DNA from: Geothrix paludis
Lineage (GTDB): Bacteria; Acidobacteriota; Holophagae; Holophagales; Holophagaceae
Direction: 5' to 3'
DNA length: 64,000 nt
Assembly: GCF_022808815.1 (NCBI RefSeq)
Contig: NZ_JAKZLC010000004.1
Location: 186,001 to 250,000 of the forward strand
Both the position numbers and the translations under genes were made by a program. The notes under the pieces are model-generated. The model ran no database searches. It was not told the origin of the DNA and was given only the letters and a program-made list of their open reading frames with translations. Each line of letters begins with the position of its first letter. Position 1 is the first letter of the stretch. Below are positions 16,157 to 37,812 of the stretch, piece by piece.

Positions 16157-16279
16157 GAAAAGCTGGGACAGGATTAACAGGATGAAAAGCTGGATTAACA
16201 GGATTAAAGCATTCACTGAATTGATTTTTTTGAATCCTGTTAATCCTTCTAATCCTGTTAATCCTGTTCCCGTTTTTCA
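16157..16279. repeat. 9-bp-period inverted repeat, GGATTAACA family (family A), copy 1
   Basis: The right arm (16233-16268) is four consecutive units AATCCTGTT, AATCCTTCT, AATCCTGTT, AATCCTGTT. The left arm has the reverse complement in two blocks (ACAGGATTAACAGGAT and TGGATTAACAGGATTAA). The outer ends GAAAAGC.GGGA and TCCCGTTTTTC also pair. It fills the whole gap between the stops of pip and dedA, and its last bases form the dedA stop codon. The core is AT-rich. Copy 2 is at 24141-24256. Confidence 0.85.
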
Positions 16280-16933
16280 GCCTTTGGCCCTGTTCTTGAA
16301 GTGGTCGTACACGAACCACGCGACGCCAGCCACGATGAGCACGCCGATGACGGCATCGAGCTTGTGGAAGTACTGGCCGAGGGTGTTCCACTTCTCGCCG
16401 AGCTTGTAGCCGACCCAGGCGAGACCCAGGCACCAGGGCAGGCTGCCCACGAAGGTGTAGAGGTGGAAGCGGGTGCGGTTCATGCGGGCGATGCCGGCGG
16501 GCAGGGCGATGAAGGTGCGCACCACGGGCAGCAGGCGGCCCAGGATGATGGCCTCGGAGCCGAACCGCTCGAAGAAGCGGTGGGCCTGGTCCAGGTGGCC
16601 CGTGTGCAGCCAGACGTACTTCCCGTACTTCTCGATGGCCCGGCGACCGCCCCAGGCGCCCACCTCGTAGGCGGGGATGCTGCCCAGGTTGCAGCCCAGG
16701 GCACCGAAGATCCCGGCGATCCAGATCTGCGCCACAGGGCTGCCGGCGCCGAGGCCCAGGAAGGTGAGCTTGCCCTGGAAGGCCAGGTAGCCCGCGAAGG
16801 GCATGATGACCTCGCTGGGCAGCGGGATGCAGGCGCTCTCGATGGCCATGAGCAGCATGACGCCCAGGGGCCCCATGGCGGCCATGAGGGCCACCATCCA
16901 GGCGATGATCGGGGCGAGGAGCTTCTGCAGCAT
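16277..16933 (-). CDS. DedA-family inner-membrane protein
   Basis: A 218-residue membrane protein of the DedA/SNARE-associated (VTT) family. It has the re-entrant segment ESACIPLPSEVIMPFAGYLA, the Gly-rich GALGCNLGSIPAYEVG, and RLLPVVRTFIALPAGIARM with its conserved Arg residues, followed by two C-terminal helices. DedA proteins act in undecaprenyl-phosphate or phospholipid flipping and in proton-motive-force maintenance. It is transcribed away from smpB, with 47 bases between the start codons. Confidence 0.92.
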   Translation of the reverse strand: MLQKLLAPIIAWMVALMAAMGPLGVMLLMAIESACIPLPSEVIMPFAGYLAFQGKLTFLGLGAGSPVAQIWIAGIFGALGCNLGSIPAYEVGAWGGRRAIEKYGKYVWLHTGHLDQAHRFFERFGSEAIILGRLLPVVRTFIALPAGIARMNRTRFHLYTFVGSLPWCLGLAWVGYKLGEKWNTLGQYFHKLDAVIGVLIVAGVAWFVYDHFKNRAKG

Positions 16934-16968
16934 GGCGGCGTCCCAAAAGGTCCAGTCTACCGGGCGGG

Positions 16969-16974
16969 TACACT
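16969..16974 (+). promoter_or_regulatory. -10 element (TACACT) six bases upstream of smpB ATG
   Basis: TACACT, then GGGTGG, then ATG at 16981. The transcript would begin at or next to the start codon, so smpB mRNA is probably leaderless or nearly so. Confidence 0.45.
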
Positions 16975-16980
16975 GGGTGG

Positions 16981-17436
16981 ATGTCCGAAGACCTCGTCCG
17001 CAACCGGAAGGCCCTGCACAACTACCACGTCCTGGAGACCTGGGAGGCGGGGATCGCCCTGCAGGGCACCGAGGTGAAGGCCCTGCGGGCGGGCCTGGGC
17101 CAGTTGCAGGACGCCTACGTGGACGCGGTGGATGGGGAGCTGTGGCTGAAGCAGGCCCACATCTCGCCCTACGAGTTCGGCACCTACGCCAACCACGATC
17201 CCCTGCGCCCCCGCAAGCTGCTGCTGCACAAGGCGGAGATCACCAAGATGACCGCGAAGGTCGTCCGCAAGGGCCTCACCATCATCCCCCTGGCCATCTA
17301 CCTGAATGAAAAGGGAACGATCAAGGTCAAGGTGGCCCTGGCCGAAGGCAAGGCCGTGGGCGACAAGCGCGAAGCCCTGAAGCAGCGCGAGCAGAAGCGC
17401 GAGATGGACCGCATCCGCAAGGGCGCGCGGGAGTAG
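16981..17436 (+). CDS. smpB: SsrA-binding protein SmpB
   Basis: A 151-residue RNA-binding protein of normal length. It shows RNRKALHNYHVLETWEAGI, the GTEVKALRAG loop, the HISPYEFGTYANHDPLRPRKLL stretch and the basic C-terminal tail (KREALKQREQKREMDRIRKG) that enters the ribosomal A site. SmpB with tmRNA rescues stalled ribosomes. No tmRNA gene is seen in this window. It converges on ribE with a family C repeat between. Confidence 0.96.
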   Translation: MSEDLVRNRKALHNYHVLETWEAGIALQGTEVKALRAGLGQLQDAYVDAVDGELWLKQAHISPYEFGTYANHDPLRPRKLLLHKAEITKMTAKVVRKGLTIIPLAIYLNEKGTIKVKVALAEGKAVGDKREALKQREQKREMDRIRKGARE

Positions 17437-17437
17437 G

Positions 17438-17570
17438 CGAAAGCGGCTGGTCACGGAAGACACAGAGGATCGCGGAAGACACGGAACAAGCCACGGCGCC
17501 CCGGATCCGGCTCGTGTCTTTATTCCGCGTCTTCCGGCTGGTTTCCGTGCCTTCCGTGACCAGCGTTTTC
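17438..17570. repeat. 9-bp-period inverted repeat, CACGGAAGA family (family C), copy 2
   Basis: The left arm has GCTGGTCACGGAAGACACAG and CGCGGAAGACACGGAACA. The right arm has TTCCGTGCCTTCCGTGACC and AGCGTTTTCC, its inverse. It starts two bases after the smpB stop and ends at the ribE stop, filling the gap completely. Confidence 0.85.
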
Positions 17571-18221
17571 CTAGACGTTCCACCCGCCCTGGGCGAACCT
17601 GGCGAGTTTCTCGTCGCTGCCGCGGAGGGCCAGGGCTCGGGCCACGAAGCGGCCGACGGGATCGGCTTCGAGGTTCACGGGGTCGCCGGGACGCATGGCG
17701 TCCAGGGCTGTGCGCGTGACGGTCTCGGGGATGAGGGCCGCGGTGAACCAGTCCGGGCCGCAGTCCACCACCGTGAGCGAGATGCCGTCCACGGCGATGG
17801 AGCCCTTGGCGGCGGTCATGGGCGCCAGCTCCGGGGGCATGGCGAAGCGCCAGATGCCCTCGTCGATGCCACCTTTGGCGCGGGGCCGCTCCAGCAGCCG
17901 GCCCACGGCGTCCACGTGGCCGGAGACCAGGTGGCCGTCGAGGGGATCGCCCACGCGCAGGGCCGGCTCCAGGTGCAGGGTCGCGCCCAGGGGCAGGCGG
18001 CCCAGGGTGGTCTTCGCCAGCGTCTCCTCGCTGAGGTCCGCCTCCCAGGCGCGCCCGTCCACGGCCACGCTGGTGAGGCAGGCGCCGTTCACGGCGATGC
18101 TGGCGCCCAGCTCCGCCCGGGCCAGCAGGTCCGCCGGGGCCGCGATGCGCAGGCGCGCCCCGCCGGGCCGAGAGGACCGGGATTCGAGATGACCGATGTG
18201 GCGGATCAGACCGGTGAACAT
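17571..18221 (-). CDS. ribE: Riboflavin synthase, alpha subunit
   Basis: A 216-residue protein starting with the invariant MFTGLI and built of two lumazine-binding repeats (about 1-97 and 98-195). Each has a NGACLT- or DGISLT-type loop (VNGACLTSVAV and VDGISLTVVDC), and the first ends in LSEETLAKTTLG. It dismutates 6,7-dimethyl-8-ribityllumazine to riboflavin. No other rib gene is adjacent. It lies 19 bases downstream of the amino-acid permease in the direction opposite to transcription flow, that is, the permease ends just before where this gene would read into it; both are on the minus strand and ribE is upstream. Confidence 0.95.
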   Translation of the reverse strand: MFTGLIRHIGHLESRSSRPGGARLRIAAPADLLARAELGASIAVNGACLTSVAVDGRAWEADLSEETLAKTTLGRLPLGATLHLEPALRVGDPLDGHLVSGHVDAVGRLLERPRAKGGIDEGIWRFAMPPELAPMTAAKGSIAVDGISLTVVDCGPDWFTAALIPETVTRTALDAMRPGDPVNLEADPVGRFVARALALRGSDEKLARFAQGGWNV

Positions 18222-18240
18222 GGGGACAGCTCCGGATCCA

Positions 18241-19815
18241 TCATCGCGCAGCTGGCGTCTCCAGGCGGCTGTTCCGCGAGCCGAAGAAGAAGTAGATCAC
18301 CAGCCCGATGCCCAGCCAGCCGAAGAAGCGGTACCAGGTGATGGCGGGCAGGCCCCTGGCGATCCAGAAGCAGCCGAGGATGCCCAGAGGCGCCACGATC
18401 CAGGCGAAGGGCATGACGAACTTCCGGGGCGCCTCCGGCCGGCGCTTCCTCAGGATGAGCACGGCGGCGCAGACGATGACGAAGGCGAAGAGGGTGCCGA
18501 TGTTGGCCAGCTCCACCACCTCGTCGATGTTGAGCAGCGCGGCGGGGATGGCCACCAGGAAACCCGTCAGCACCGTGGCGGTGGAGGGCGTCTTGAACCG
18601 CGGGTGGACCTTGCCGAACCAGGATCCCAGCAGGCCGTCGCGGCTCATGCTCAGGAAGATGCGGGGCTGGCCCACCTGATAGACGAGGAGGGCCGCGGTG
18701 GTGGCGATGACGGCGCCGAAGCTGATGACGGCGGCGATGCCGGCCATCCTGTGCTGGGTGAAGATGTAGGCTAGGGGATCCGCGATGCCCCCCAGCTTCG
18801 TGTAGTGCAGCATGCCGGTCACCACCAGGGCCACGGCGGCGTAGATGACGGTGCAGATGACCAGGGAGCCCAGGATGCCCCGGGGCAGGTCGCGGCCCGG
18901 ATCGCGGCATTCCTCGGCCGTGGTGCTCACGGCGTCGAAGCCGATGAAGGCGAAGAAGATGATGGCGGCGCCGGCCTGGATGCCCCGGAACCCATGGGGC
19001 ACGAAGGGATGCCAGTTGTCCGGGCTGATGAACTTCACGCCGAGCCCCACCACGGCCAGCAGGATGATCACCTTGATCACCACCATGACGCCGTTCACCC
19101 GCGCGCTCTCCTTGATGCCGATGTAGCAGAGCCAGGTGATGACGGCGGTGATGATCACGGCGAGGAGGTTGATGGTGATGGGGAAGTTCCCCACTGTGGG
19201 CGCGGCCTTCACCACGTCCCAGTTGGCGAAGGTGGCGGCGCCGTTGATGAGGCCCGCCTTGGCCTGGGCCAGGGCCTGGAGCTTGGCGCCGAGGTCCATG
19301 GCCGGCACGCCCTGGACCAGCTTGAGGGCGCTGCGGGGGTCCATGCCCAGCCAGCCGGGGATGTCCACGTGGAGCACCGTGGAGAGGAAGCTGCGGGCGT
19401 AGTCGCCCCAGGAGATGGCCACGGCCACGTTGGAGATGGCGTACTCCAGCAGCAGGTCCCAGCCGATGATCCAGGCCATCAGCTCGCCGAGCGTGGCGTA
19501 GGCGTAGGTGTAGGCGCTGCCGGACACGGGGATCATGGAGGCCATCTCGGCGTAGGCCAGGGCGGTGAAGCCGCAGATGACCGCCACGATGAGGATGCTG
19601 AGGACCAGGCCCGGCCCCGCCGGGAGGCGTCCGTCGGCCATGTTCCCGGCGGCGGCGGTGCCGATGCTCGAGAAGATGCCCGCCCCGATGATGGCGCCGA
19701 TGCCGAACATGGTGAGGTCGAAGGCCCCCAGGTTCTTCTTGAGCTGGTGCTCCGGCTCGTCGGCGCTGGCGCGGAGCTGCTCCAGGGTTTTCGTGCGAAG
19801 AACACGTTCCAGCAT
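18241..19815 (-). CDS. APC-superfamily amino-acid permease
   Basis: A 524-residue transporter with about twelve helices. Helix 1 carries the broken GIGAIIGAGIF motif of APC permeases. YAEMASMIPVSGSAYTYAYATLGE and FIGFDAVSTTAEECRDPGRDLPRGI are typical of the cationic amino-acid transporter (CAT/YfnA) branch. A long loop between helices 4 and 5 (about 150-215) is an insertion also seen in that branch. The substrate is uncertain. Its start at 19815 diverges from the DUF58 gene, and ribE starts 19 bases beyond its other end. Confidence 0.9.
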   Translation of the reverse strand: MLERVLRTKTLEQLRASADEPEHQLKKNLGAFDLTMFGIGAIIGAGIFSSIGTAAAGNMADGRLPAGPGLVLSILIVAVICGFTALAYAEMASMIPVSGSAYTYAYATLGELMAWIIGWDLLLEYAISNVAVAISWGDYARSFLSTVLHVDIPGWLGMDPRSALKLVQGVPAMDLGAKLQALAQAKAGLINGAATFANWDVVKAAPTVGNFPITINLLAVIITAVITWLCYIGIKESARVNGVMVVIKVIILLAVVGLGVKFISPDNWHPFVPHGFRGIQAGAAIIFFAFIGFDAVSTTAEECRDPGRDLPRGILGSLVICTVIYAAVALVVTGMLHYTKLGGIADPLAYIFTQHRMAGIAAVISFGAVIATTAALLVYQVGQPRIFLSMSRDGLLGSWFGKVHPRFKTPSTATVLTGFLVAIPAALLNIDEVVELANIGTLFAFVIVCAAVLILRKRRPEAPRKFVMPFAWIVAPLGILGCFWIARGLPAITWYRFFGWLGIGLVIYFFFGSRNSRLETPAAR

Positions 19816-19889
19816 GGGAGGCCTTGTGGGGATGAGGGACCATGCTAGCAGGCGGATTTCCGGCCGCGTGGCGAGGTAGGCTGGAGGCC

Positions 19890-20828: not shown

Positions 20829-20850
20829 TCTGAACGTGACGGAGGCGCCG

Positions 20851-21267: not shown

Positions 21268-21301
21268 ACCACAGGATCTATCCAAGTGGGCCCCCGCCGC
21301 C

Positions 21302-21307
21302 TACACT
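21302..21307 (+). promoter_or_regulatory. -10 element (TACACT) for the TPR gene
   Basis: TACACT lies 31 bases before the ATG at 21339. The leader contains GAGGAAG as ribosome site. Confidence 0.4.
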
Positions 21308-21338
21308 TTCCGAACCATCAGGCATCTTGAGGAAGTGA

Positions 21339-24140
21339 ATGGCCATTGATCGCGTCAAAGTCAAGAAGGAAGCCGACAAGCTCTTGACGGCGGGGAAAGT
21401 CGATCGGGCCATCGAGGAGTTCCACAAGCTCGTCGAGGACAACCCCAAGGACTACGCCACCCTGAACCAGATCGGCGACCTCTACGTGCAGATCGGGCGC
21501 GCGCGGGAGGGCGTGGAGATCCACAAGCGGCTCGGCGGGGCCTACGAGCGGGACGGCTTCCACGCCCGCGCCGCCGCAATCTTCCAGAAGGTGGTGCGCA
21601 ACGCCCCCGAGGACATCGACGCCGCCCAGCGCCTGGCGGACCTCTACCGCCAGATGAACAAGGTCACCGACGCGGTGAAGGTCCACCTGCAGGTGGCCGA
21701 GCACTTCCAGAAGAAGGGCCTCATCAAGCGGGCCCTGGAAGAGTTCAACAAGGTCGTCGACCTGGACCCCAAGAACCTGAAGATGAAGGTCAAGCTGGCC
21801 GACCTCTATAACAAGGAGGGCATGAAGGACCGCGCGGCGGGCATCTACCTGGAAGTGGCCGAGTCCCTGGCCATGGAGCAGATGCACGGGGAGGCCAACC
21901 AGATCCTCGAGCGCGCCAAGTCGATGATCTCCACGCCCCATGTGTTCCTCACCCAGAGCCGGCTGGGGGTGATCCAGGGCGACTATGCCCTCGCCGCCCA
22001 GCACCTGCGGGAGGGCTTGGCCAGCAACCCGCGCGACACGGAGCTGCTGGAGGCCCTCGCCGAGATCGAACTCCGCAGCGGGCACCCCGACCGCGCCCTG
22101 GAGGCCCTGGGGGAGATCGCCCAGCTCCCGGAGAAATCCCTTCCGCTGGCCGAGAAGGCCCTCCGCAATCTGGTGAACGCCGACCGCGGGAACGAAGGCC
22201 TCCGGCTGTTCGCACCCATCGCCCGCGAGCTGGCCCGCCGGGGTTCCGGCGACATTGTGGGCCGCAGCCTTCGGGGGGCCATGCAGAGCGCCATGAGCCT
22301 CGAGGCCTGGACCCTGCTCGCCGAGATCGCCCACCAGAGCGGCAACCGGACCGACCAGGTCCATGCCCTGCAGAATGCCTACAGCCTGGCCCACCAGGCC
22401 AATGACCAGGCGCAGATCGGACAGCTCGCCAACCAGCTCCGCGGATTGGGCGTGGTTCCCGATGCCTCGGCGCCGCCGCCAAGCCCGCTCCAGCCCTCTT
22501 CCCCCGCGGGCTTCCAGGCCCCGGCGATCATGGAGGCCACCCTTCAGGGCGGTGGGGTCACGGAGCTGGATCCCGTCCGGCGCCTCCGCATCGAGCAATT
22601 TTCCCGGGAGGCCGAGGCCCTGCTGCGCGGCGGCAGCCACGACCGCGCCGTGGAAAGCTACAAGAAGGCCCTGGAGCTCGATCCGTCGGATCTCGCGATC
22701 ATCGAGGCCATCGTCGCCGTGCACCGGACCACCGGGCACCTCACCAAGGTGCAGATGCAGTACGTGCAGAGCGCCCAGGCCCTCAACCAGCTCGGCAGGA
22801 AGCGCGAGGCCGCCCAGCTGCTGGACATGGCCGAGCAGCTCTTCCCGGGATCGACCCGCATCCACCGCCGGACCCTGGGCCTCCCCGAACCCGGCGCCCG
22901 CCTGCCCGAGCCTCCGGCCCCTCCGCCGATTCCCGTGCCGGCCCCGCCTGCGCCGCGGCCGGCCATCCCCCTCGCCGCGCCAGCCCCCATCCCCGCGCCG
23001 GCGCCTGCACCCATCCCCCTACCCGAGCCCCTGCCCGAGCCCTCCCTCTCCCTGGAACAGCCCATCGAGCTGGAGGTTCCCGATCTCGCTCCGGCGCCGC
23101 CAGCCAAGAAGCCCCTTCCCTCTTCACGGGAGCCCATCCCCCTGGGCGAAGGCCTGCCCGTGCGGCCGGAGCCCGTCCTCCCCGCCGCGGCCCTGCCTTC
23201 GGCGCCCATGGCGGCGGCGGTCCCGCCCGCGGCGCTCGATGCCTCCGACCTGAGCTGGATGGACGAGACGCTGTCCGATCTGAGCGCCGGATCGGATGCC
23301 GTCTCCTCCCCCACGCTACAACTCCCCCCCATGCCCACGGGCGTCCTCTCGCCGGAGGTCGTCGAGGCCCTGCCGCCGCTCTCGGCCGCCGAGCCCTGGG
23401 CGCCCCCGGTGGAGCCGGCCCTTCCGGATGAGCTGGTCGGCCTCCTGGGCGACATCGACTTCCAGCTGGACTACGGAAGCCCGGAGGAGGCGGACGTCGA
23501 GATCCAGGCCGCCCTCAAACAGTTTCCGGGGCACCCCGAACTGGAAGCCCGCATGGAGCGGGCCTCCATCGCCCTCCAGAAGCTGGGCCACGCCCCCAAG
23601 GCCAACGCCCTGGAGGAAGGCGACTTCGCCAATTCCTTCTTCGACCTCACGGACGTGCTGGGCACCGCCCTCCTGGATACGGGCGAAGGCGAGGAGATGC
23701 ACGACGCCACCCATGTGGTGGAGAAGATCCAGAGCGTCGACGAGCTGTTCAGCGCCTTCCGCGAGGGCGTGGAGAAGCAGGTCAAGGGCGACGACTACGA
23801 CACCCACTACAACCTGGGCATCGCCTACAAGGAGATGATGCTCATCGATCCCGCCATCGAGGAGTTCAAGATCGCCATGGGCGACCCCGAGCGGACCCTC
23901 GAGTGCTGCTCCATGCTCAGCATCTGCGAGCAGAGCCGGGGCGATCTCCAGGCCGCCGTGGACTGGCTCCGGCAGGGCGTCGAGGCCCCCGGCTTCCCGC
24001 CCGAGGACAGCATCGGCCTCCGCTACGACCTGGCCGAGATCTACCTCCAGCAGGGCCAGGCCGCCCTCGCCGCCACCGAGTTCAAGGTCGTCCACGACAT
24101 GGACCCCGACTACCGCGATGTCGCCGCGCGCCTGGCCTGA
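21339..24140 (+). CDS. Large tetratricopeptide-repeat protein with a Pro/Ala-rich middle
   Basis: A 933-residue soluble protein without signal peptide. Residues 1-370 hold about nine TPR-like helix pairs (such as GKVDRAIEEFHKLVEDNPKD, GLIKRALEEFNKVVDLDPKN). Another TPR pair follows near 420-490. A long Pro/Ala linker (about 515-690) separates it from a C-terminal TPR array (about 695-930), which includes DDYDTHYNLGIAYKEM, DPAIEEFKIAMGDPERTLEC and YLQQGQAALAATEFKVV. TPR arrays bind other proteins; the partner is not visible. Proteins of this design occur in gliding and pilus systems of other phyla, but nothing nearby supports that. Confidence 0.8.
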   Translation: MAIDRVKVKKEADKLLTAGKVDRAIEEFHKLVEDNPKDYATLNQIGDLYVQIGRAREGVEIHKRLGGAYERDGFHARAAAIFQKVVRNAPEDIDAAQRLADLYRQMNKVTDAVKVHLQVAEHFQKKGLIKRALEEFNKVVDLDPKNLKMKVKLADLYNKEGMKDRAAGIYLEVAESLAMEQMHGEANQILERAKSMISTPHVFLTQSRLGVIQGDYALAAQHLREGLASNPRDTELLEALAEIELRSGHPDRALEALGEIAQLPEKSLPLAEKALRNLVNADRGNEGLRLFAPIARELARRGSGDIVGRSLRGAMQSAMSLEAWTLLAEIAHQSGNRTDQVHALQNAYSLAHQANDQAQIGQLANQLRGLGVVPDASAPPPSPLQPSSPAGFQAPAIMEATLQGGGVTELDPVRRLRIEQFSREAEALLRGGSHDRAVESYKKALELDPSDLAIIEAIVAVHRTTGHLTKVQMQYVQSAQALNQLGRKREAAQLLDMAEQLFPGSTRIHRRTLGLPEPGARLPEPPAPPPIPVPAPPAPRPAIPLAAPAPIPAPAPAPIPLPEPLPEPSLSLEQPIELEVPDLAPAPPAKKPLPSSREPIPLGEGLPVRPEPVLPAAALPSAPMAAAVPPAALDASDLSWMDETLSDLSAGSDAVSSPTLQLPPMPTGVLSPEVVEALPPLSAAEPWAPPVEPALPDELVGLLGDIDFQLDYGSPEEADVEIQAALKQFPGHPELEARMERASIALQKLGHAPKANALEEGDFANSFFDLTDVLGTALLDTGEGEEMHDATHVVEKIQSVDELFSAFREGVEKQVKGDDYDTHYNLGIAYKEMMLIDPAIEEFKIAMGDPERTLECCSMLSICEQSRGDLQAAVDWLRQGVEAPGFPPEDSIGLRYDLAEIYLQQGQAALAATEFKVVHDMDPDYRDVAARLA

Positions 24141-24256
24141 AAAGCGGGGACAGGATTAACAGGATGAAAAGCTGGATTAACAGGATTAAAGCCTTTGCTT
24201 TTGAATCCTGTTAATCCTTTCTAATCCTGTTAATCCTGTCCCCGCTTTTTTCTCTC
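24141..24256. repeat. 9-bp-period inverted repeat, GGATTAACA family (family A), copy 2
   Basis: The outer stem AAAGCGGGGACAGGATTAAC pairs with the reverse complement that ends in CCCCGCTTTTTT. Inner units repeat AATCCTGTT/AATCCTTTCT. It fills the space between the stop codons of the TPR gene and fmt exactly. It shares the motifs and layout of copy 1 but has a tighter, better-paired outer stem. The closing run of T makes it a plausible terminator for the TPR gene. Confidence 0.85.
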
Positions 24257-25175
24257 AGCCGAGTACCCGGCTGCCGCTGGCGCCCCAGGGCTGGAGGGCC
24301 TGGAGCGCGGGCTGGACGGGCTTGCCGGGCCGCTGGAGCTGGGTGAGTTCCAGGGCGCCCTCGGGGGTGGTGAGCCAGGCGCCCTCCTTGCCCCATAGGA
24401 GCTGGCCCGGGTCGCGGTAGCAGGTGCGCAGGGCCCCCACGCCGCAGACCTTGAGGGGCTGGCCCTCCATCTGCAGCTCGGATCCCGGCCAGGGCCAGAG
24501 GGCCCGCACCTGCCGGTGGAGCTCCGCCGCCGGGCGGTGCCAGTCGAGGTGGCCCATGTCCTTGCGGAGCTTCGAGGCGTAGGTGGCCTCCTCGTGGCGC
24601 TGCTCCACCGGCCGGCCGCAGCCGCAGAGCAGCAGGGGCAACTGGTCCTTGAGCAGCTCGGCCGCGTCCTCCGCCAGGGCCGCCAGCAGGCTCTCGGCCG
24701 TGTCCCCATGCCCGATGGCGCGGCGGGATTGGGCCAGGATGGGCCCTTCGTCCAGCCCCGGGGTGAGGCGCATGAGGCTGACGCCCGTTTCCTCATCCCC
24801 CGCCAGGAGGGCGTGGTTCACGGGCGCCGCACCCCGCCAGCGGGGCAGCAGGGAGAAGTGCAGGTTCCAGACGCCGTTGGGACAGGAATCCAGCATCCAG
24901 GCAGGCAGCAGGTGGCCGTAGGCCACCACCACGGCCAGGTCGATCTTCAGGGAGTCCCACAGCTCGCGGGTCTCCGGCGCCTTCCAGGTCGGGGGCTGGT
25001 GGACGGGCAGGCCCAGCTCCAGGGCCGCCCCCTTCACCGGCGGGGCTTCCAGGTGGCGCCCCCGCCCCGCGGGCCGGTCGGGATTGCAGAACACCGCCTC
25101 GATGCCTTCCTCGGCCAGGGCCCGCAGGGCCGGGACGGCCGCGCGGGGGGTGCCGAGGAACGCGATGCGTGTCAT
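24255..25175 (-). CDS. fmt: Methionyl-tRNA formyltransferase
   Basis: A 306-residue enzyme of normal length. The formyl-transferase domain (1-205) has FLGTPRAAVPALRAL, the AYGHLLPAWML segment and the catalytic NLHFSLLPRWRGAAPV (Asn/His), with the Asp in LTPGLDEGP. The C-terminal domain binds tRNA. It formylates initiator Met-tRNA. Its ATG overlaps the def stop (ATGA), giving the classical def-fmt operon. Confidence 0.96.
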   Translation of the reverse strand: MTRIAFLGTPRAAVPALRALAEEGIEAVFCNPDRPAGRGRHLEAPPVKGAALELGLPVHQPPTWKAPETRELWDSLKIDLAVVVAYGHLLPAWMLDSCPNGVWNLHFSLLPRWRGAAPVNHALLAGDEETGVSLMRLTPGLDEGPILAQSRRAIGHGDTAESLLAALAEDAAELLKDQLPLLLCGCGRPVEQRHEEATYASKLRKDMGHLDWHRPAAELHRQVRALWPWPGSELQMEGQPLKVCGVGALRTCYRDPGQLLWGKEGAWLTTPEGALELTQLQRPGKPVQPALQALQPWGASGSRVLG

Positions 25176-25752: not shown

Positions 25753-27657
25753 ATGCTGCGTTCCTTCCGCCAGGTCTTCAAATCCAACCGTACCCCCATG
25801 GCCGCGATCATGATCGTGGTCCTGCTGGGCCTGGTGGCCTATCTGGCCCCCTCCGGGCGGGTGGATACGCCAGATACCGTCGTGGCGAGGGTCTACGGCC
25901 GCGACGTGCTGCTGCGCGACCTGGCCGAGCACATGCAGGAGCTCTACCAGCGCTATGGCAAGCAGGCCAGTCCCGAGGCCCTCAAGCCCTTCGTCCAGTC
26001 CCAGGCCCTGAAGGACCTCATCAACCAGAAGCTCATGGAGGAACTGGCGGAACGGCACCACGTGGTGGTGACGGACGAAGAGGTGGGCGCCCGCCTCCGG
26101 GCCTTCCTGAAGCAGTACCCCGTCCTCCTGGACGCCAACGGCAACCTGAAGTCCACGGCGGAACTGAAGCAGATCTTCCAGGACACCGGCTTCAACCCGG
26201 CCATCCAGGAGCGGAACCTGCGCAGCGAGCTGCTGCGCACCAAGCTCATCCAGCAGGCGGCCGTCCAGGTGCCCGTGGACGAGGCCTGGCTGGCGGTGGA
26301 GAACCGGCTGCGCAACGAGAAGGTCGCCTTCCAGCAGGCCACCCTGGCCGTGGATCCCGCCGCCGTGGCCGATCCCGGCGACGCTCCCCTGGAGGCGTTC
26401 TACAAGGCCGGCGGTCAGCGCTTCCTCCAGCCCCCCCGCCGCGTGATCCAGTACGTGGCCGTGGATCGCGCCGCCCTGGGCAAGGACCTCCAGGTGGACG
26501 ACGCCACCCTCAAGGCCGCCTTCGAAGCCCGGAAGAACGACTTCATCGAGTTCAAGGCCCGCCACATCCTCTTCAAGGCCGAAGGTGACACGCAGATGCA
26601 GGAGGCCACGGCCAAGGCCGAGCTGCTGCGGGGGCGCCTCGTGAAAGGGCAGGACTTCGCCAAGGCCGCCGAGGAGCTCAGCGAGGATCCCAGCGCCAAG
26701 GGCAATGGCGGCGACCTGGGCTGGTTCAACGCCTCGAAGATGGTCAAGCCCTTCTCGGATGCCGCCGCGACCCTCAAGCCCGGCGAGATCAGCCAGCCCG
26801 TGCGGACCGTCTACGGCGTCCACCTCATCAAGCTGGAGGGCCGCCGGGAGAAGCGGTTCGAGGAGGTCAAGGACCAACTGGCCCGCGAGATCTCGGAGGA
26901 CCGGTTCAACGCCCGCGCCCAGGAGCGCCTGGAGCAGATCCGCAAGCGCGCCAACGGGGGCGATCTCGCCGCCGCGGCCAAGAGCTTCGCCAGCCAGGCC
27001 CAGCTCAGCCAGCCCTTCAGCAATGAGCCCGGCGCCCAGTCCGAAGGCCTGCCGGAACTGCCCCAGATCGCCGGCGAGGCCTTCCGCCTGAAGGTGGGCG
27101 AGGTCTCCAAGCCCATGCGGTTCGCCGATCGCCACATCCTCTTCCGCGTGCAGGAGGAGCTGCCCGAGGCCGTGCCGCCCTTCAAGGAGATCCGCGCCAA
27201 GGTGCTGGCCGCCTACCGCCTGGAGGAATCCCGCAAGCAGGCCCTGGCCAAGGCCGAGCAGGCCATCAAGACCGGCGGCCTCCAGGCCGTGGGCCCCGTC
27301 TCCGACCAGGCCGCGGCTCCCCTCAGCGGCCTGCGCGACCTGGTGTCCCACCCCGGCATCCGCAAGGCCCTGCTGGACACGCCCGTCGGCCAGATCACGC
27401 CCCTGCTCTGGGCGCCGGACGGCAAGCTGTGGGCGGCGCGAATCGTCTCGCGGGAGCCCGCCCCCGCCCTTGACTTCGAAAAGCGCCGGAGCCTCATCCA
27501 GGAGGTCCAGACCTCCGAGGCCCAGAAGCTCCTCTCCGCGGAGCTCCAGTCCCTGGACCAGGAGGGCCGCCTGCGCCCTGGCCTCAGCAGCTTCTGGGGC
27601 CACTTCGGCGGCATCTACGTGAACGCCAGCGCCGTCCAGGTGCCGGTGGAGGAGTAG
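25753..27657 (+). CDS. PpiD/SurA-type periplasmic peptidyl-prolyl isomerase
   Basis: A 634-residue protein anchored by one N-terminal helix (about 16-34). A SurA-like N-terminal chaperone region (about 45-230) is followed by a parvulin domain (about 265-365: KARHILFKAEG, DLGWFNASKM, PVRTVYGVHLIKLEGRR). A second, less regular parvulin-like segment follows (about 430-480: EVSKPMRFADRHILFRVQEE). The layout matches PpiD, which helps fold outer-membrane and exported proteins at the periplasmic face of the membrane. It would serve barrels such as the four receptors here. Confidence 0.85.
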   Translation: MLRSFRQVFKSNRTPMAAIMIVVLLGLVAYLAPSGRVDTPDTVVARVYGRDVLLRDLAEHMQELYQRYGKQASPEALKPFVQSQALKDLINQKLMEELAERHHVVVTDEEVGARLRAFLKQYPVLLDANGNLKSTAELKQIFQDTGFNPAIQERNLRSELLRTKLIQQAAVQVPVDEAWLAVENRLRNEKVAFQQATLAVDPAAVADPGDAPLEAFYKAGGQRFLQPPRRVIQYVAVDRAALGKDLQVDDATLKAAFEARKNDFIEFKARHILFKAEGDTQMQEATAKAELLRGRLVKGQDFAKAAEELSEDPSAKGNGGDLGWFNASKMVKPFSDAAATLKPGEISQPVRTVYGVHLIKLEGRREKRFEEVKDQLAREISEDRFNARAQERLEQIRKRANGGDLAAAAKSFASQAQLSQPFSNEPGAQSEGLPELPQIAGEAFRLKVGEVSKPMRFADRHILFRVQEELPEAVPPFKEIRAKVLAAYRLEESRKQALAKAEQAIKTGGLQAVGPVSDQAAAPLSGLRDLVSHPGIRKALLDTPVGQITPLLWAPDGKLWAARIVSREPAPALDFEKRRSLIQEVQTSEAQKLLSAELQSLDQEGRLRPGLSSFWGHFGGIYVNASAVQVPVEE

Positions 27658-27658
27658 C

Positions 27659-27719
27659 GATCAGCTGTCGGCTCTCAGCTGCCAGTCACTGATAGCTGGG
27701 AGCCGATGGCCGACAGCTC
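27659..27719. repeat. 7-bp-period inverted repeat (AGCTGTCGGCTC family, family D)
   Basis: GATCAGCTGTCGGCTCTCAG and, inverted, TAGCTGGGAGCCGATGGC/CGACAGCTCC form an imperfect hairpin. Units such as CAGCTGT, CGGCTCT, CAGCTGC and CGACAGC recur every 7 bp. It begins one base after the PpiD-like gene stop and runs into the 3' end of the convergent ABC gene, supplying that protein's last fifteen or so residues and its stop. Confidence 0.75.
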
Positions 27720-28334
27720 CATCGCCCGATCGCACAGGACCTCCACGACTACCTGATCGTGGCTGGCCAGCAGGAGGGCCGTGCCCTCGGCCTTGAGGTC
27801 CAGGAGCAGGGCCAGCAGGTGGCCCGCCAGGGTGGGATCCAGGGCCGAGAAGGGCTCGTCCAGCACGAGCAGAGCGGGATCCAGCATGAGGGCCCTTCCC
27901 AGACAGAGCCGCTGGGACAAGCCCCCGGACCAGGCCGCGGGCCGCTGGCCCAGGGCCGCCTCCGGGAACTTCACACGCCCAGCCATGGCCGCCGCGGCCT
28001 CCCGACGGGATGACTCCGTGCCCCGATTCCAGATGGCGAGGGGCTCCTGGAGGATCTCCCAGCCCGTGCGGTGCGGCGGCAGGCTGGCCAGCGCATCCTG
28101 GAACACCGCCTGGATCCGGGATCGGCGCCCCCGCCGTTCCCGCTCCGGCAGGGGCGACCAGGGCGTGCCCTCCAGGAGGATCCGGCCTTCCGTGGGCTCC
28201 AGCAGGCCCAGCACGAGGTTCAGGAGAGTCGTCTTTCCCGCCCCGCTCGCGCCGACCACGCCCAGGGCTTCGCCCTGGGCGATGGAAAAAGAAACATCCC
28301 TGAGCACATCCTTCCCCATGCGCTGAAGGCGCAA
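27675..28334 (-). CDS. Orphan ABC-transporter ATP-binding protein (oligopeptide/nickel type)
   Basis: A 219-residue ATPase with Walker A GASGAGKTT, Q-loop VFQDALASL, signature WSGGLSQRLCLGRAL, Walker B ALLVLDEPFSALDP and switch ASHD. It resembles the DppF/OppF class by its helical region but is short, and no permease or binding protein is near. The listed start is TTG at 28334. The frame upstream ([17 protein letters not shown]) looks like a normal ABC N-terminus, and a CTG at 28367, overlapping the serS stop, has AGGTGAT just upstream, so initiation at CTG is possible. The C-terminal residues AIGSQLSVTGS are encoded by the family D repeat. Confidence 0.75.
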   Translation of the reverse strand: MRLQRMGKDVLRDVSFSIAQGEALGVVGASGAGKTTLLNLVLGLLEPTEGRILLEGTPWSPLPERERRGRRSRIQAVFQDALASLPPHRTGWEILQEPLAIWNRGTESSRREAAAAMAGRVKFPEAALGQRPAAWSGGLSQRLCLGRALMLDPALLVLDEPFSALDPTLAGHLLALLLDLKAEGTALLLASHDQVVVEVLCDRAMELSAIGSQLSVTGS

Positions 28335-29632: not shown

Positions 29633-29663
29633 GGTGTGTCCCTAGCGATTGATCAGTTTACCT

Positions 29664-29698: not shown

Positions 29699-29713
29699 CA
29701 TCAGGCCAGAAGC

Positions 29714-30721: not shown

Positions 30722-30845
30722 GCTTCCACCCTAATCGAAACGGGCCGGACTTCTCCATGGGGCGCGGCGCGACGTCTGCGCTCCGGTCCCGGGTTGGCCC
30801 GCGCGCCTTCCGGATGGTTAACTGGACTGGGACCTTCGCCACGCC

Positions 30846-31751: not shown

Positions 31752-31827
31752 CCTCCGGCCCCTCGGGCACGTCGGGCCGCGAACCGCAGGCGACGACGCG
31801 AGTTACAACGAGAGCTGCAATGCGGCG

Positions 31828-31851
31828 TACAGCGCGACCTACAGCGCGACC
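31828..31851. repeat. 12-bp tandem duplication at the 3' end of the GYNTD-type gene
   Basis: TACAGCGCGACC occurs twice in a row. The second copy forms the end of the minus-strand coding sequence and its stop. Confidence 0.6.
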
Positions 31852-32483: not shown

Positions 32484-32525
32484 GGGAGGAACCCGGAAGA
32501 CGAAGGGGCAGGGCGGATCATGAGC

Positions 32526-34037: not shown

Positions 34038-34148
34038 CTGGTTACCTCGGGAGGCCGGGAGGAAGAAAGAGTGGCTGGGCACAACGCTACCAGAAATCTG
34101 CACTTCCAACGCAAGCGAATGGGCCGGAGGCGTGTCTGGAATCTGACG

Positions 34149-35453
34149 CTAGCGCAACAGCTTCTTCAAGACCCGTACCCGTTCCACTTCCACCAGGCGG
34201 ACCAGCAGGACCCGGTCCCCCACCCAGATCCAGGCGACGCCCAGGGGTTCGCGCAAGGCGACCTCGGGGCCTCCGGGCAGCCAGCCCTTGACGGAGACGC
34301 GCAGGTTCAGGGCGGCCCGCCAATCCGGGCGGAAGGCCTCGCTCAGCGCCTGGCGCTGGCGCTCCGGCGGCAGGGCGCTCTCGTTCCACCGCTGGTCCCA
34401 GGCATCGAAGGCCCCGTTGTCCCGCCAGGCCCAGGCCGCGTCCCAGGCGGGCCAGGGTAGCGTCCCGTCGGGCACCGGGATCCAGTCCACCCCGGTCACC
34501 GGGCTCGTGCGGCGGGCCATCCCCTCGTCGGCGAGAGGCGAGGTCAAGGCCATGCGCTGGGGCGGATGGGCCGTGAGCAGCCCTGGCCCCGCGGCGGCGC
34601 GGCGCCACCGGCCCTCCTTCAGGACCCAGGCGACCCACCCCTGGACGCCTCCGTACCAGAGGCGGTCCGCCCGCGGGAACCAGAGCCGGTCCCCCGCATG
34701 CCAGGGCAGCTCGATGCGGGCTCCGGGCAGGTCCCGGCCATCGTCCGACAGGGCTTCCGGCTTCGTGGCCAGGCCCCGGGGCGGAGCGGGAAGGCCCGCT
34801 TCGTCCCAGCCGGCGAGGGTGGATTCCCCCAGATCGGTCTCCAGGGGCAGGACGCCGACCAGCAGGCGGGATTCCGCCCGGGGGTCCGCCTTTTCGAAGA
34901 ATCCCAGCAGCACGGCCTTTCCGTCCCAGCTGAACCGGCTCCAGGGCCCCGACTCCGTGGACCAGATCACCCGACCCTCGGGCACCTCCAGCAGCCGGGT
35001 CTCGTAGCGACCGTCCCCCATCTGGAGGGTGACCAGCAGGCGGTTGCCCTTGGCCGGATCCAGCCGGGCGGAGGCAAGGGGGGCGTCGAACCGGTACCGC
35101 CGCCATTCCAGACCGCGCCAGAGGACGACCTCGCTCCGTCCCTGGGGACCGTTCAGGGCCAGGCCCTGGTCGCCCAGGTAGGGCGAGGCCGGCTCCCAGG
35201 GCGTGCCGAAGCCGCCTTCGAAGGGCCAGGGCTCGGACTGGTCTGGGTCGAGGGCCCCCTGGAAGCGCGGCGCCCAGCCATCCTGCAGCCTGAGCTCGGC
35301 GAGGGTCTCGCTGCCGCCAAGGCTCATGACGGCCGGTGCATCTGTGACCGTCACGCCGCCCGAGGTCACCGGACGCGGCGCCTGCACCACCGCGAAGAGC
35401 AGCAGCATGGCGGCGATGAAGAGGGTGGCGATGATGTACCGTTGTGGGATCAC
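34149..35453 (-). CDS. Membrane-anchored hypothetical protein
   Basis: A 434-residue protein I do not recognise. One N-terminal helix (about 7-25) is followed by a large Trp-rich, beta-rich region with repeated strands that would suit a beta-propeller or sandwich outside the cytoplasm (RYETRLLEVPEGRVIWSTE, WYGGVQGWVAWVLKEGRWRRA). The C-terminus is basic. It diverges from the CYTH gene with 50 bases between the starts. No enzymatic motif is visible. Confidence 0.55.
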   Translation of the reverse strand: MIPQRYIIATLFIAAMLLLFAVVQAPRPVTSGGVTVTDAPAVMSLGGSETLAELRLQDGWAPRFQGALDPDQSEPWPFEGGFGTPWEPASPYLGDQGLALNGPQGRSEVVLWRGLEWRRYRFDAPLASARLDPAKGNRLLVTLQMGDGRYETRLLEVPEGRVIWSTESGPWSRFSWDGKAVLLGFFEKADPRAESRLLVGVLPLETDLGESTLAGWDEAGLPAPPRGLATKPEALSDDGRDLPGARIELPWHAGDRLWFPRADRLWYGGVQGWVAWVLKEGRWRRAAAGPGLLTAHPPQRMALTSPLADEGMARRTSPVTGVDWIPVPDGTLPWPAWDAAWAWRDNGAFDAWDQRWNESALPPERQRQALSEAFRPDWRAALNLRVSVKGWLPGGPEVALREPLGVAWIWVGDRVLLVRLVEVERVRVLKKLLR

Positions 35454-35503
35454 GATGGGACCGCAGAGACAGCACCATCATGCCTGATCGGAGGCGCGCC
35501 GCG

Positions 35504-36028
35504 ATGAAGCACAAACCCGCCGTGGAGACCGAGCTCAAGCTGCGCATCCCGGCCACGAGGCCCTACCGCGCCCTGCTGGAGGCCCTGGGCTTCCACGAGG
35601 TCGTTCCCGCCCAGGCGGAGGTGAGCGTGCTCTGGGACCGGGATGGCGAGCTGCGGGCCGCGGGCTCGGCGTTGCGGACACGACGCTTCGCCGGGGCCTT
35701 CCGGCTGACCTGGAAGGGCCCCAAGGTGCCGGACCCCATGCTCAAGATCCGCCCCGAGCACGAGGCGGGCATCGACGACGGGGAGTCCCTGGAGGCCATC
35801 CTCCGCGCCCTGGGCTTCGCGCCCGTGCTGCTCATGGAAAAGGTGCGAGCCGTCTGGGAGCGGGAGGAGCTGGAGGCCTGCCTCGACGAGACCCCCTTCG
35901 GCTGCTACCTGGAGCTGGAGGGAGATCCCCAGGCCATCCGCGCCGCCATGGAGGGCCTGGGCCTCGCCCCCGACCGCGCCGAGACCCGCAGCTACCCGGA
36001 GCTGTACCAGGCTCACGGGCTGGGCTAG
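35504..36028 (+). CDS. CYTH-domain protein (class IV adenylate cyclase / ThTPase superfamily)
   Basis: A 174-residue protein. The CYTH signature ExExK appears as ETELKLRI at residues 8-15, and later strands add basic and acidic tunnel residues (RLTWKGPK, KVRAVWEREELEACLDE, CYLELEGDP). CYTH enzymes act on triphosphates: cAMP formation, thiamine triphosphate or inorganic triphosphate. The activity cannot be assigned. The ATG at 35504 has GGAGG nine bases upstream; an in-frame ATG at 35480 is possible. It converges on the metB-type gene across a family B repeat. Confidence 0.85.
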   Translation: MKHKPAVETELKLRIPATRPYRALLEALGFHEVVPAQAEVSVLWDRDGELRAAGSALRTRRFAGAFRLTWKGPKVPDPMLKIRPEHEAGIDDGESLEAILRALGFAPVLLMEKVRAVWEREELEACLDETPFGCYLELEGDPQAIRAAMEGLGLAPDRAETRSYPELYQAHGLG

Positions 36029-36052
36029 ATTTCTGGAAAAGAAGAACCGCCA

Positions 36053-36126
36053 ACCGCAGAGAACGCGGAGAGCGCAGAGAAAAGCTCTTTGGCTTTTTCC
36101 TCTGCGTTCTCCGCGTTCTCTGCGGT
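36053..36126. repeat. 9-bp-period inverted repeat, CGCAGAGAA family (family B), intact copy
   Basis: The left arm has units CCGCAGAGA, ACGCGGAGA, GCGCAGAGA followed by AAAGC. The right arm is their inverse, ending TTCTCTGCGGT. The hairpin is about 32 bp with few mismatches. It sits between the stops of the CYTH gene (36028) and the gamma-synthase gene (36157). Confidence 0.85.
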
Positions 36127-36156
36127 GAATCAACCGCCCGGATGGGTCGGCGCGAT

Positions 36157-37311
36157 TCAGACCTTCAGGATCTGTTCCAGGTCCTCGATGAGGTCCTGCA
36201 CGTCTTCCACGCCCACGCTGAGGCGCAGGAGGTTGTCGTTGATGCCGAGGCGCTGGCGGTCCGCCTCGGGCACGCTGCCGTGGGTCATGCTGGCCGGGTG
36301 GCAGACGAGGCTCTCCACGCCGCCCAGGCTCTCGGCCAGGGAGAACACCTTGAAGCTGGAGGCCATGCGCCGCGTGCGCTCCGCGTCGCCCGTGTCGAAG
36401 CTGACGATGCCCGAGAAGCCCTTCATCTGCTGCTTGGCGAGGGCGTGCTGGGGGTGGGATTCCAGTCCGGGGTAGTAGACGGCCTTCAGGTCCTTGCGGG
36501 CCTCCAGCCAGCGGGCGATCTGGAGGGCGCTCTGGTTGTGGCGCTCCATGCGCAGGTGCAGCGTCTTGGTGCCCCGGAGGATGAGCCAGGACTCCATGGG
36601 CGAGAGGATGCCCCCGGCGGCCTTCTGGTGGAAGCGCAGGCCCTCGGCGATGTCGTCGCGGCTGGTGATGGCGATGCCGCCGATGGTGTCGCTGTGGCCG
36701 TTCAGGTACTTGGTGGTGGAGTGGAAGACCAGGTCGGCCCCCAGCTCCAGGGGCCGCTGGTTGTAGGGCGTGGCGAAGGTGTTGTCCACGGCCAGCACGG
36801 CCATGCAGCCGGCTTCCGTCATCACGCGGCGCGCGCCGGGGATGTCCGTGAGGCCCAGCATGGGGTTGGTGGGCGTCTCCAGCATCACCAGCTTCGTGTT
36901 GGGACGCAGCGCCGCCTTGAAGGCCGCCAGGTCGCCGGTGTCCACCTGGGTGTAGGTGAGGCCGAAGCGGGTCATCACCTTGTCCAGCAGGCGGAAGGTG
37001 CCGCCGTAGACGTTGTCGCCCAGCACCACGTGGTCGCCGCTGGAGAGCTGCTCGAAGATGGCCTGCACCGCCGCCATGCCCGAACCGAAGGCCATGCCGT
37101 GGGCGCCGCCCTCGAGGGCCGCCAGGTTCGCCTCCAGGGCGTCGCGGGTGGGGTTGCGCACGCGGGCGTAGTCGAAGCCCTTGTTCTGGCCCAGGCCCTC
37201 CTGCACGTAAGTGCTGGTGAAGAAGACCGGCGTCATGATGGCGCCGCTGGTGGGATCCGGGCTCTGGCCGGCGTGGATGCAGCGGGTGTCGAAACGGCCT
37301 TGGGGATTCAT
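36157..37311 (-). CDS. Cystathionine gamma-synthase/lyase-family PLP enzyme
   Basis: A 384-residue PLP enzyme of the Cys/Met metabolism family. The segment TRCIHAGQSPDPTSGA is the family N-terminus. The PLP-binding Lys sits in HSTTKYLNGHSDTIGG. Further motifs are YARVRNPTRDALE, ETPTNPMLGL and the C-terminal SLGGVESLVCHPASMTH. It could be MetB (cystathionine gamma-synthase), MetC or a gamma-lyase; the sequence cannot separate these confidently. The ATG at 37311 is chosen; a longer upstream reading has no domain. It diverges from the small lipoprotein gene. Confidence 0.88.
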   Translation of the reverse strand: MNPQGRFDTRCIHAGQSPDPTSGAIMTPVFFTSTYVQEGLGQNKGFDYARVRNPTRDALEANLAALEGGAHGMAFGSGMAAVQAIFEQLSSGDHVVLGDNVYGGTFRLLDKVMTRFGLTYTQVDTGDLAAFKAALRPNTKLVMLETPTNPMLGLTDIPGARRVMTEAGCMAVLAVDNTFATPYNQRPLELGADLVFHSTTKYLNGHSDTIGGIAITSRDDIAEGLRFHQKAAGGILSPMESWLILRGTKTLHLRMERHNQSALQIARWLEARKDLKAVYYPGLESHPQHALAKQQMKGFSGIVSFDTGDAERTRRMASSFKVFSLAESLGGVESLVCHPASMTHGSVPEADRQRLGINDNLLRLSVGVEDVQDLIEDLEQILKV

Positions 37312-37353
37312 GGGACCATCCTTCCTGGTCCACCAGTGTGAAGGTGAGCGTCC

Positions 37354-37767
37354 ATGAGGAAAAGCATCGCTTTGGTTTCTATGCTGGCGATCCTCCTGGC
37401 TTGTCGATCCGACAAGCCCGAGGACCGGATCCGGAAGGCCTTCGAATCCTGCCGCGCCGCCCTGGAGGACGGGGACGCGGCGGCGGCCGTGGGGCCCCTG
37501 GACGCGGCCTTTCGCGGACCCGAAGGCATGGACAAGGGCGGCGCCCGGCTGTTCCTCCTGGGCCTCCTGAGGCAGGACAAGGTGGGGGTGACCGTGCTGC
37601 GCAACGACCTCACCGTTCGGGGGAACGAGGCCTTCCAGGAGGTGGACCTCCTCATCACGGGCCGCCAAGGCGGCCTCCTGCCCCGGGACGCCACGCGCCG
37701 CTCCTTCGGCCTGCGCTGGCGGAAGGCCGGCGACGACTGGCGGATCCTGGAGATCCAGGAGCGCTAG
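37354..37767 (+). CDS. Small lipoprotein
   Basis: A 137-residue protein with a signal peptide ending in the lipobox LLAC (C17), so membrane-anchored. The mature part looks like the NTF2/DUF4440-type alpha-beta fold (DRIRKAFESCRAALEDGD, LRWRKAGDDWRILEIQ), often a small binding domain. Function unknown. Its last codons and stop (GAGCGCTAG) are the first unit of a 9-bp tandem repeat. Confidence 0.6.
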   Translation: MRKSIALVSMLAILLACRSDKPEDRIRKAFESCRAALEDGDAAAAVGPLDAAFRGPEGMDKGGARLFLLGLLRQDKVGVTVLRNDLTVRGNEAFQEVDLLITGRQGGLLPRDATRRSFGLRWRKAGDDWRILEIQER

Positions 37768-37812
37768 GGACGTCAGGAGCGCTAGGAACGTCAAGAACGC
37801 TGGGAGCGCTAA
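37759..37812. repeat. Six 9-bp tandem units spanning the convergent stop codons (family E)
   Basis: Consecutive units are GAGCGCTAG, GGACGTCAG, GAGCGCTAG, GAACGTCAA, GAACGCTGG and GAGCGCTAA. The first supplies the stop of the lipoprotein; the last overlaps the stop of the kinase on the opposite strand. AGCGCT is self-complementary, so both strands read similar units. Confidence 0.8.

Follow-up and report, generated by a model that had tools for sequence, protein, structure and literature searches.

Repeat elements in the gaps of the window

The window analyzed here is a 64-kb stretch of the Geothrix paludis genome (C4:186001-250000; the genome comprises 3.41 Mb in 9 contigs, with a G+C content of about 68%), and our subject is a group of short repeat elements lying between its genes. 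The window contains eight gaps between convergent genes, and inverted arrays of 9-bp units occupy four of them. An element of the GGATTAACA family, here called F1, fills the gap at 16155-16276 between an alpha/beta hydrolase gene (15195-16154, plus strand; pip in the initial annotation) and a VTT-domain gene (16277-16933, minus strand; dedA in the initial annotation); its best arms are 16157-16189 and 16246-16278. A second F1 element, with a base carrying AAAAGCGGGG...CCCCGCTTTT, fills the gap at 24141-24254 (arms, 24140-24170 and 24219-24249) between a TPR gene (21339-24140, plus strand) and fmt (24255-25175, minus strand). The gap at 17437-17570, between smpB (16981-17436, plus strand) and a ribE-like gene for a lumazine-binding protein (17571-18221, minus strand), is filled by a CACGGAAGA-family element (arms, 17446-17466 and 17544-17564). 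A CGCAGAGAA-family element (36053-36126) lies inside the gap at 36029-36156, between a CYTH gene (35504-36028, plus strand) and a Cys/Met PLP-enzyme gene (36157-37311, minus strand). The inverted elements are given without a strand. RNA folds of these regions, compared with 200 dinucleotide shuffles, gave z scores of -9.7 (16151-16280), -8.0 (17437-17575), -13.2 (24138-24257), and -9.1 (36029-36156).

The initial annotation had counted five convergent gene pairs with inverted arrays and a sixth with tandem units of the same design. The four 9-bp arrays described above stand. The fifth, a hairpin of the 7-bp type (27663-27718; unit AGCTGTC; fold z of -6.0 for 27655-27725), is real, but the gap between the PpiC/SurA-type gene (25753-27657, plus strand) and a minus-strand open reading frame (ORF; 27675-28259) is just 17 bp, and the hairpin extends into the 3' end of this ORF. 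The sixth, in the gap assigned to a lipoprotein and a kinase gene, is a direct 9/18-bp repeat on the plus strand (37743-37805) that spans the stop codon of a small ORF (37381-37767); no hairpin was found there (z of -1.05), and the design differs. This repeat begins within the small ORF and contains AGCGCT and GACGTC palindromes. A CACGGAAG-family paired array (10053-10194) in the co-directional gap at 9890-10341 had been overlooked. No paired array was present in the convergent gap at 31752-31838 (z of +0.9), and the one at 10762-10768, which is 7 bp long, held no array. Among convergent gaps of at least 25 bp, arrays were present in 4 of 6 in the window, which was chosen for them, and in 7 of 63 elsewhere in the genome sample described below (P = 0.005).

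A Pfam scan of ten window proteins gave matches to SmpB, lumazine-binding, TPR, formyltransferase, PpiC, CYTH, Cys/Met PLP enzyme, VTT, and alpha/beta hydrolase, so most of the gene names initially assigned fit; the small ORF at 37381-37767 had no Pfam match. An Rfam search of window positions 9800-39300 returned six matches at E values up to 1, four of them to microRNA hairpin models. All were below the gathering scores, and a known RNA family was therefore rejected as the identity of the elements.

Abundance, period, and placement

The arrays were counted in a sample consisting of the window plus 800 kb of the same genome (864 kb), with gene calls made within the analysis and gaps of 25 to 1,000 bp, of which 69 were convergent, 252 were co-directional, and 118 were divergent (12 longer ones were excluded). 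Paired 9-bp arrays were found in 11/69 convergent, 11/252 co-directional, and 1/118 divergent gaps, compared with 0, 0, and 0 in dinucleotide shuffles, so the periodicity survived the shuffled controls proposed in the initial annotation. Gene pieces carried an array in 1 of 3,050 cases (0.2 in shuffles), which leaves little force in the earlier remark that a 9-bp unit is also three codons. Period 9 was preferred (23 gaps), with 1, 3, 0, and 0 gaps at periods 8, 10, 11, and 12; one or two of the 23 matches resemble chance GC-rich matches. Paired arrays of period 7 occurred in 16 gaps (3 convergent, 11 co-directional, and 2 divergent; 0.6 expected overall), with no excess in gene pieces (11 versus 9.8 expected). 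The claim that one design recurs in several sequence families was thus upheld far beyond shuffled expectation. Period 6 was found in 19 gaps (6.4 expected) and 210 of the 3,050 gene pieces (57 expected), a mostly genic excess that we take as codon structure. In a laxer detection test, period-7 elements in this genome (78) were not above shuffles (87), and an overly long search pattern gave no match here and one in a congener. Plain inverted repeats (z > 3) were present in 46/69 convergent, 65/252 co-directional, and 8/118 divergent gaps; gene-end hairpins are common in this genome, and the majority are without an array.

The 9-mer units of G. paludis share a suggestive core. CRCNRR, formed on these data, fits 13 of 14 distinct units (mean of 4.0 after letter permutation; 0 of 2,000 permutations as high). 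In the gaps of relatives it fits 5 of 8 distinct units, several of which had been seen beforehand (mean, 1.4; 8/2,000), and in the congener G053 1 of 2. It was not replicated outside the genus, where it fits 2 of 7 distinct units other than those of F1 and CACAGAGAA (1.3 expected), and we regard it as a lead. In the 7-bp class, 7 of the 12 distinct units have a TCAG core (1.0 on average after permutation); paired arrays with TCAG (TCAGTCC and TCAGCTA/TCAGCTG) lie at C1:16047-16277 and C1:1098659-1098717. Two other convergent gaps hold copies of a MITE-like (miniature inverted-repeat transposable element) sequence of about 270 bp, at C1:224213-224486 and C1:1162905-1163181; the inverted ends (GAGTGCCTAACAAAACCCC...) measure about 33 bp.

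The initial annotation proposed that the arrays are built where transcription meets. We examined their placement in five genomes (G. paludis, Thiobaca trueperi, Anaerolineales HSG25, the distant relative G081, and the congener G053), again with gene calls made within the analysis and counting a convergent gap as two gene 3' ends. T. trueperi and HSG25 were picked as F1 carriers, and the HSG25 stretches came from contigs already known to contain F1. In G. paludis, convergent gaps exceeded co-directional gaps when counted per gap (P = 0.002) but not significantly per 3' end (11/138 versus 11/252; P = 0.17). Arrays in T. trueperi occupied 3/32 convergent, 18/154 co-directional, and 0/46 divergent gaps and 1/1,249 gene pieces, and those in HSG25 occupied 5/32, 11/123, and 3/31 gaps, respectively, and 0/1,222 gene pieces. 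When the five genomes were pooled, convergent gaps were still ahead per gap (P = 0.007). The rates per 3' end were equal, however (21/364 convergent versus 41/748 co-directional; P = 0.89), indicating that the arrays are linked to gene ends rather than to colliding transcription. Equal frequency in co-directional gaps was the outcome that the initial annotation had itself set as refuting a special part for convergence, and an origin specific to convergence was rejected. Convergent and co-directional gaps together carried arrays far more often than divergent gaps (62/930 versus 4/279; P = 0.00025). In co-directional gaps, the median distance from the upstream stop codon to the array start was 18 bp in G. 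paludis (n = 11) and 37 bp in T. trueperi (n = 18). The placement rule is therefore "after a gene," to which HSG25 conforms poorly if at all (P = 1 for convergent plus co-directional versus divergent gaps).

Turnover within the genus and recurrence across phyla

Orthologous gaps were compared, as suggested in the initial annotation. Four genes were each sought in 41 genomes of the genus, giving 30 loci per gene and 120 in total. Sixty of these, G. paludis included, had the same partner gene and a gap of no more than 260 bp and were compared; the remainder had another neighbor, a longer gap, or an incomplete locus. Family labels rest on simple word matches, with the CRCAGAG word of L230 excluded because it belongs to a GC-rich repeat; the gap of L278 is shortened because the in-frame stop found falls inside the element. 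Words of the 9-bp families were present in 33 of the 60 gaps, 16 were empty (-4 to 21 bp), and 11 held other sequence, in some cases a GC-rich dispersed repeat. At every one of the four sites, two or more families and also empty gaps were seen. The dedA/pip gap (14 loci) was empty in 7 and held F1 in 4 and CACGAAG in 3. The gsyn/CYTH gap (17 loci) was empty in 4, with stop codons overlapping by 4 bp, and held CRCAGAG in 9 (one a remnant), CACGGAAG in 3, and other sequence in 1. At fmt/TPR (20 loci) we found 4 F1, 5 CRCCAAG (one with CACGAAG too), 1 CRCAGAG-like, 8 other, and 2 empty gaps, and at smpB/ribE (9 loci) 2 CACGGAAG, 1 CRCAGAG, 1 CRCCAAG, 2 other, and 3 empty gaps.

Gaps were replaced and not just interrupted, as seen in the near relative G040 (fmt 97% identical), in which a GC-rich gap of 120 bp takes the place of the F1 element of G. 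paludis and neither sequence leaves a visible trace of the other. The asymmetric F1 arms of G. paludis are inverted relative to those in the same gap of L264 (dedA) and of L208 (fmt), indicating independent gains or a flip. Between G. paludis and G040, the orthologous CGCAGAGAA elements (L228 and L229) differ in unit-type changes confined to one arm. The identity of the gene ends to those of G. paludis did not correspond with the gap type at the orthologous loci, and an exchange of gaps with long flanks is therefore unsupported, although short tracts may have been exchanged. The F1 16-mer was present in 24 of 77 genomes of the family (reversed control, 0), with 19 matches in G. paludis, 22 in G065, none in many congeners, and 1 in all other genera together.

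A GC-rich dispersed repeat with inverted ends and a core like GGGGGTGTGCGCGCAGCGCGGAACCCCC occupies the fmt gap of L199, L201, L203, and L212 and the CYTH gap of L230 in place of a 9-bp array. In the fmt gap of L223 (G059), a CACGAAG array adjoins a CRCCAAG half-array, and L219 (G068) has the right half alone; these two are possible snapshots of replacement.

F1 also recurs far outside the genus. The exact 20-mer GGATTAACAGGATTAACAGG, for which about 0.5 matches in 257 billion bases was calculated by chance, was found at no fewer than 118 loci in at least about 76 assemblies and at least 15 phyla; accession prefixes served for the hand count of assemblies and record titles for that of phyla, and the numbers are lower bounds. 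Many of the records are metagenome-assembled genomes (MAGs) with depositor labels, and those labeled Bordetella are doubtful. Carriers not marked as MAGs include Thiobaca trueperi, Flavobacterium pectinovorum, Chryseosolibacter histidini, Desulfamplus magnetovallimortis, Microcoleus, and Cedecea. Exact 16-mer matches numbered 258 in T. trueperi, 191 in HSG25, and 0 in controls. Among the matches listed, 55 loci had a nearby opposite arm, and the purine-rich arm came first in 51 and second in 4; at the other 63 of at least 118 loci, no opposite arm was detected at the stringency used. The 63 elements of G. paludis, T. trueperi, and HSG25 showed the same polarity, with 56 purine-left, 7 mixed, and none pyrimidine-left. 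Most paired cross-phylum elements start with GACAGG and end with CCTGTC around variable loops, that is, they have terminal inverted repeats. The terminal C was present at 88% of 112 ends (56 elements), a position at which the internal units carry T. Whole elements, and not merely units, are common to copies in one genome: several F1 copies within a genome have loops or flanks in common, and asymmetric parts that are not repetitive recur among the copies of the genus.

The F1 arrays at L060, L100, L124, and L131 lie on a single strand, and no opposite arm was present up to 160 bp away (the spacing at L060 is regular, about 31 bp); single-strand forms therefore also occur. A plasmid search gave one partial match, and two 20-mers searched in 2.9 million viral contigs matched 15 and 23 contigs; plasmids or viruses as the main carrier are thus unsupported, although no search of the phage collection was made. 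A parent transposon in the form of F1 arms bracketing a gene cassette is likewise unsupported, as no clear case was present among the at least 118 loci in stretches of up to 8 kb, judged from arm positions.

The flanks of F1 resemble in part those of terminators. On either side, the 13 distinct elements of the genus show the consensus CCTGTCCCCGCTTTT, an arrangement like that of bidirectional intrinsic terminators; CCCCGC follows CCTGT, and positions 7 to 10 are 77 to 96% T (strands pooled). In the 56 cross-phylum elements, positions 8 to 13 beyond CCTGT are 36 to 53% T versus 19 to 26% A, a T excess with a P value of about 1e-10 when counts are rebuilt from rounded frequencies and sites are treated as independent.

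Origin and possible function of the elements

Taken together, the gap-filling repeats are probably dispersed foldback elements that are gained and replaced at gene ends and act there as bidirectional, terminator-like hairpins. They measure about 70 to 140 bp and consist of two arms, mostly of two to four tandem 9-bp units each, inverted around a short loop; a second class has 7-bp units, and the purine-rich arm nearly always comes first, on either strand. Transcripts arriving from both sides would meet a hairpin followed by a T-rich stretch, a putative bidirectional intrinsic terminator. We propose that copies are kept mainly at 3' ends because the hairpin terminates both ways: new copies would be tolerated or retained by selection mainly there, two convergent genes could rely on a single copy, and gaps would be refilled repeatedly. 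Multiregister pairing of the 9-bp units may allow arm length to change without loss of the hairpin. The position after genes, the hairpin strength, the polarity, the turnover, and the shared ends were directly observed, and termination is predicted from them. Neither the polarity nor the unit is explained by a hairpin alone; the elements must therefore share a common descent or be recognized by some factor.

Several observations weigh against this interpretation. The elements are dispensable, since G081 has no array in 142 gaps (0/28 convergent, 0/79 co-directional, and 0/35 divergent) and G053 has arrays in only 3 of 210 (2/21, 1/140, and 0/49, respectively). Those of G053 do not keep the polarity, two being mixed and one pyrimidine-left. 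In HSG25, 3 of the 31 divergent gaps carry an array, and in co-directional gaps the array starts at a median of 129 bp past the upstream stop (n = 11). Of the at least 118 cross-phylum loci, a cruder gene caller assigned 20 to convergent gaps, 35 to co-directional gaps, and 12 to divergent gaps; another 23 lay within the ORFs that it called, and 28 were located where the stored sequence stops. Positions 3 to 7 of the cross-phylum flanks are A-rich, with T dominant only from position 8, unlike a textbook U-tract, and beside the right arm of the element at 36053-36126 the T-run is absent. Among the 40 gaps of relatives that measured 25 to 260 bp, a strict paired-array detector found period-9 arrays in only 10; many arms are therefore degenerate, and the count of 33 orthologous gaps rests on family words. 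No consistent target-site duplication was seen by eye in filled and empty gaps placed side by side, and neither an autonomous copy nor a mobilizer was found in a Y1_Tnp search of the genus or from the arm positions at the at least 118 loci.

Arrays might instead arise locally, through slippage during replication and expansion templated by the hairpin, under selection for terminators, with similarity between genomes reflecting convergence. Such slippage, which the initial annotation had considered as a local process building unrelated sequences, would be helped by the pairing of 9-bp units in several registers and fits the one-armed unit-type changes between the CGCAGAGAA elements of G. paludis and G040. 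We nevertheless consider it unlikely: the 20-mer occurs across phyla against the chance expectation given above, the 51:4 polarity among the matches listed and the termini are also common across phyla, copies of the genus share asymmetric non-repetitive parts, and a terminator can do without any particular unit or polarity. The arrays could also be binding sites of a nucleoid or other global regulator, since IHF/HU sites were proposed for paired tandem repeats by the authors who described those of Geobacter metallireducens (PMC2700814). The conserved units and polarity do suggest some recognition. Divergent gaps are nearly free of arrays in the pooled genomes (4/279), unlike what promoter regulation would produce, and the family sequences differ; we consider this explanation unlikely.

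The arrays might also be repetitive extragenic palindromic (REP)-like elements moved by a Y1 (RAYT/IS200-like) transposase: REPs are described as palindromic, multicopy elements that mostly follow genes and occur in 8 phyla (PMC3733652), and G. paludis does carry one Y1_Tnp gene. However, only 3 of the 25 genomes of the genus that were searched had a Y1_Tnp match (G. paludis, G053, and G064). The F1-rich drafts G039 (97% complete) and G065 (93%) had none, and G053 has seven matches to Y1_Tnp and none to F1; on these grounds a Y1/RAYT mobilizer was rejected as very unlikely. No GTAG or CGTC tag was apparent in the end and flank composition of the 56 and 13 elements, although no scan aimed at the tag was made. 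Least credible, to the point of being extremely improbable, is a derivation from DNA uptake sequences, transformation 9-mers co-opted as inverted terminator pairs as in Neisseria and Haemophilus. These are the closest functional parallel, with inverted pairs in a favored configuration, A/T tails, and enrichment between convergent genes, and the passages describing them give usually at least 1,000 copies per genome (PMC1852404). Within the coding sequence of the 864-kb sample, ten units showed no general excess, as in observed versus expected counts of 0 versus 0.1 for ACAGGATTA, 23 versus 23.4 for CACGAAGGA, and 8 versus 14.3 for CACGGAAGA; only CGCAGAGAA (7 versus 2.9) and CACCAAGGC (37 versus 22.5) were above expectation. 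Several families are also present together, and uptake sequences were rejected for the lack of a general coding excess.

Some known elements resemble these arrays in part. MITEs are short, non-coding inverted-repeat elements present in many copies; the arms described here are tandem arrays, and neither a target duplication nor a parental transposon was found. The foldback (FB) elements of Drosophila have inverted arms of short tandem repeats, but they are far longer and eukaryotic, and the likeness is one of resemblance only. The initial view that no named element has this pattern was nearly right, the exception being G. metallireducens, in which paired tandem 7- to 9-mers were described as putative global-regulator binding sites of classes 1 to 3 (PMC2700814). 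In the passages on them, those repeats are likewise tandem units of 7 to 9 nucleotides in opposite-strand pairs, dispersed and of several families (PMC2700814). By eye, class 2 (TCTCCGTS[Y]) and class 3 (MTYCTGA) appear compatible with the CRCNRR and TCAG cores, respectively, class 3 resembling the 7-bp class of G. paludis. The same passages describe classes 1 to 3 as unique to that genome and as IHF/HU sites, and class 4 as resembling multicopy sequences of many genomes; they do not describe a 3'-end bias, turnover at orthologs, or a cross-phylum family (PMC2700814). For G. bemidjiensis, the relevant passages report multicopy families with direct repeats of 6 to 42 nucleotides, multicopy sequences making up 12% of intergenic regions (PMC2996986). 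The uptake-signal terminators of Neisseria and the Pasteurellaceae share the short motif in inverted pairs, the favored configuration, the A/T tails, and the tail-to-tail position, and are described there with one motif per arm and per genus in very many copies, within genes too (PMC1852404). The elements of G. paludis, in contrast, have tandem arms, several families, and a low copy number, and lack a general coding excess. REPs and bacterial interspersed mosaic elements (BIMEs) are also dispersed palindromes downstream of genes in many phyla, with a CGTC class for which no transposase is known, but they measure 20 to 40 bp and have a GTAG or CGTC tag, and 9-bp tandem arms are not described in the passages on them (PMC3733652). 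In the open-licence literature, we found no paper with the exact repeat strings and no description of the cross-phylum GGATTAACA element or of turnover at orthologous gaps.

A bolder version of the foldback-element interpretation is possible, and we advance it tentatively: the elements might form one ancient foldback class with a 9-bp unit grammar in at least 15 phyla, spread in trans by a factor other than Y1/RAYT and providing exchangeable terminators that work both ways, with the stop-to-stop gap serving as a replaceable cassette as genomes evolve.

If the foldback-element interpretation is correct, the hairpins at bacterial gene ends would be portable parts that can stand in for one another. 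Termination, read-through, and antisense transcription could then be studied in natural experiments, namely in orthologous gaps with no element, with one, or with one of another family. That distant phyla have these units, ends, and polarity in common, with no known mobilizer, poses a concrete question that may be addressed with closed genomes and with the high-copy isolate Thiobaca trueperi.

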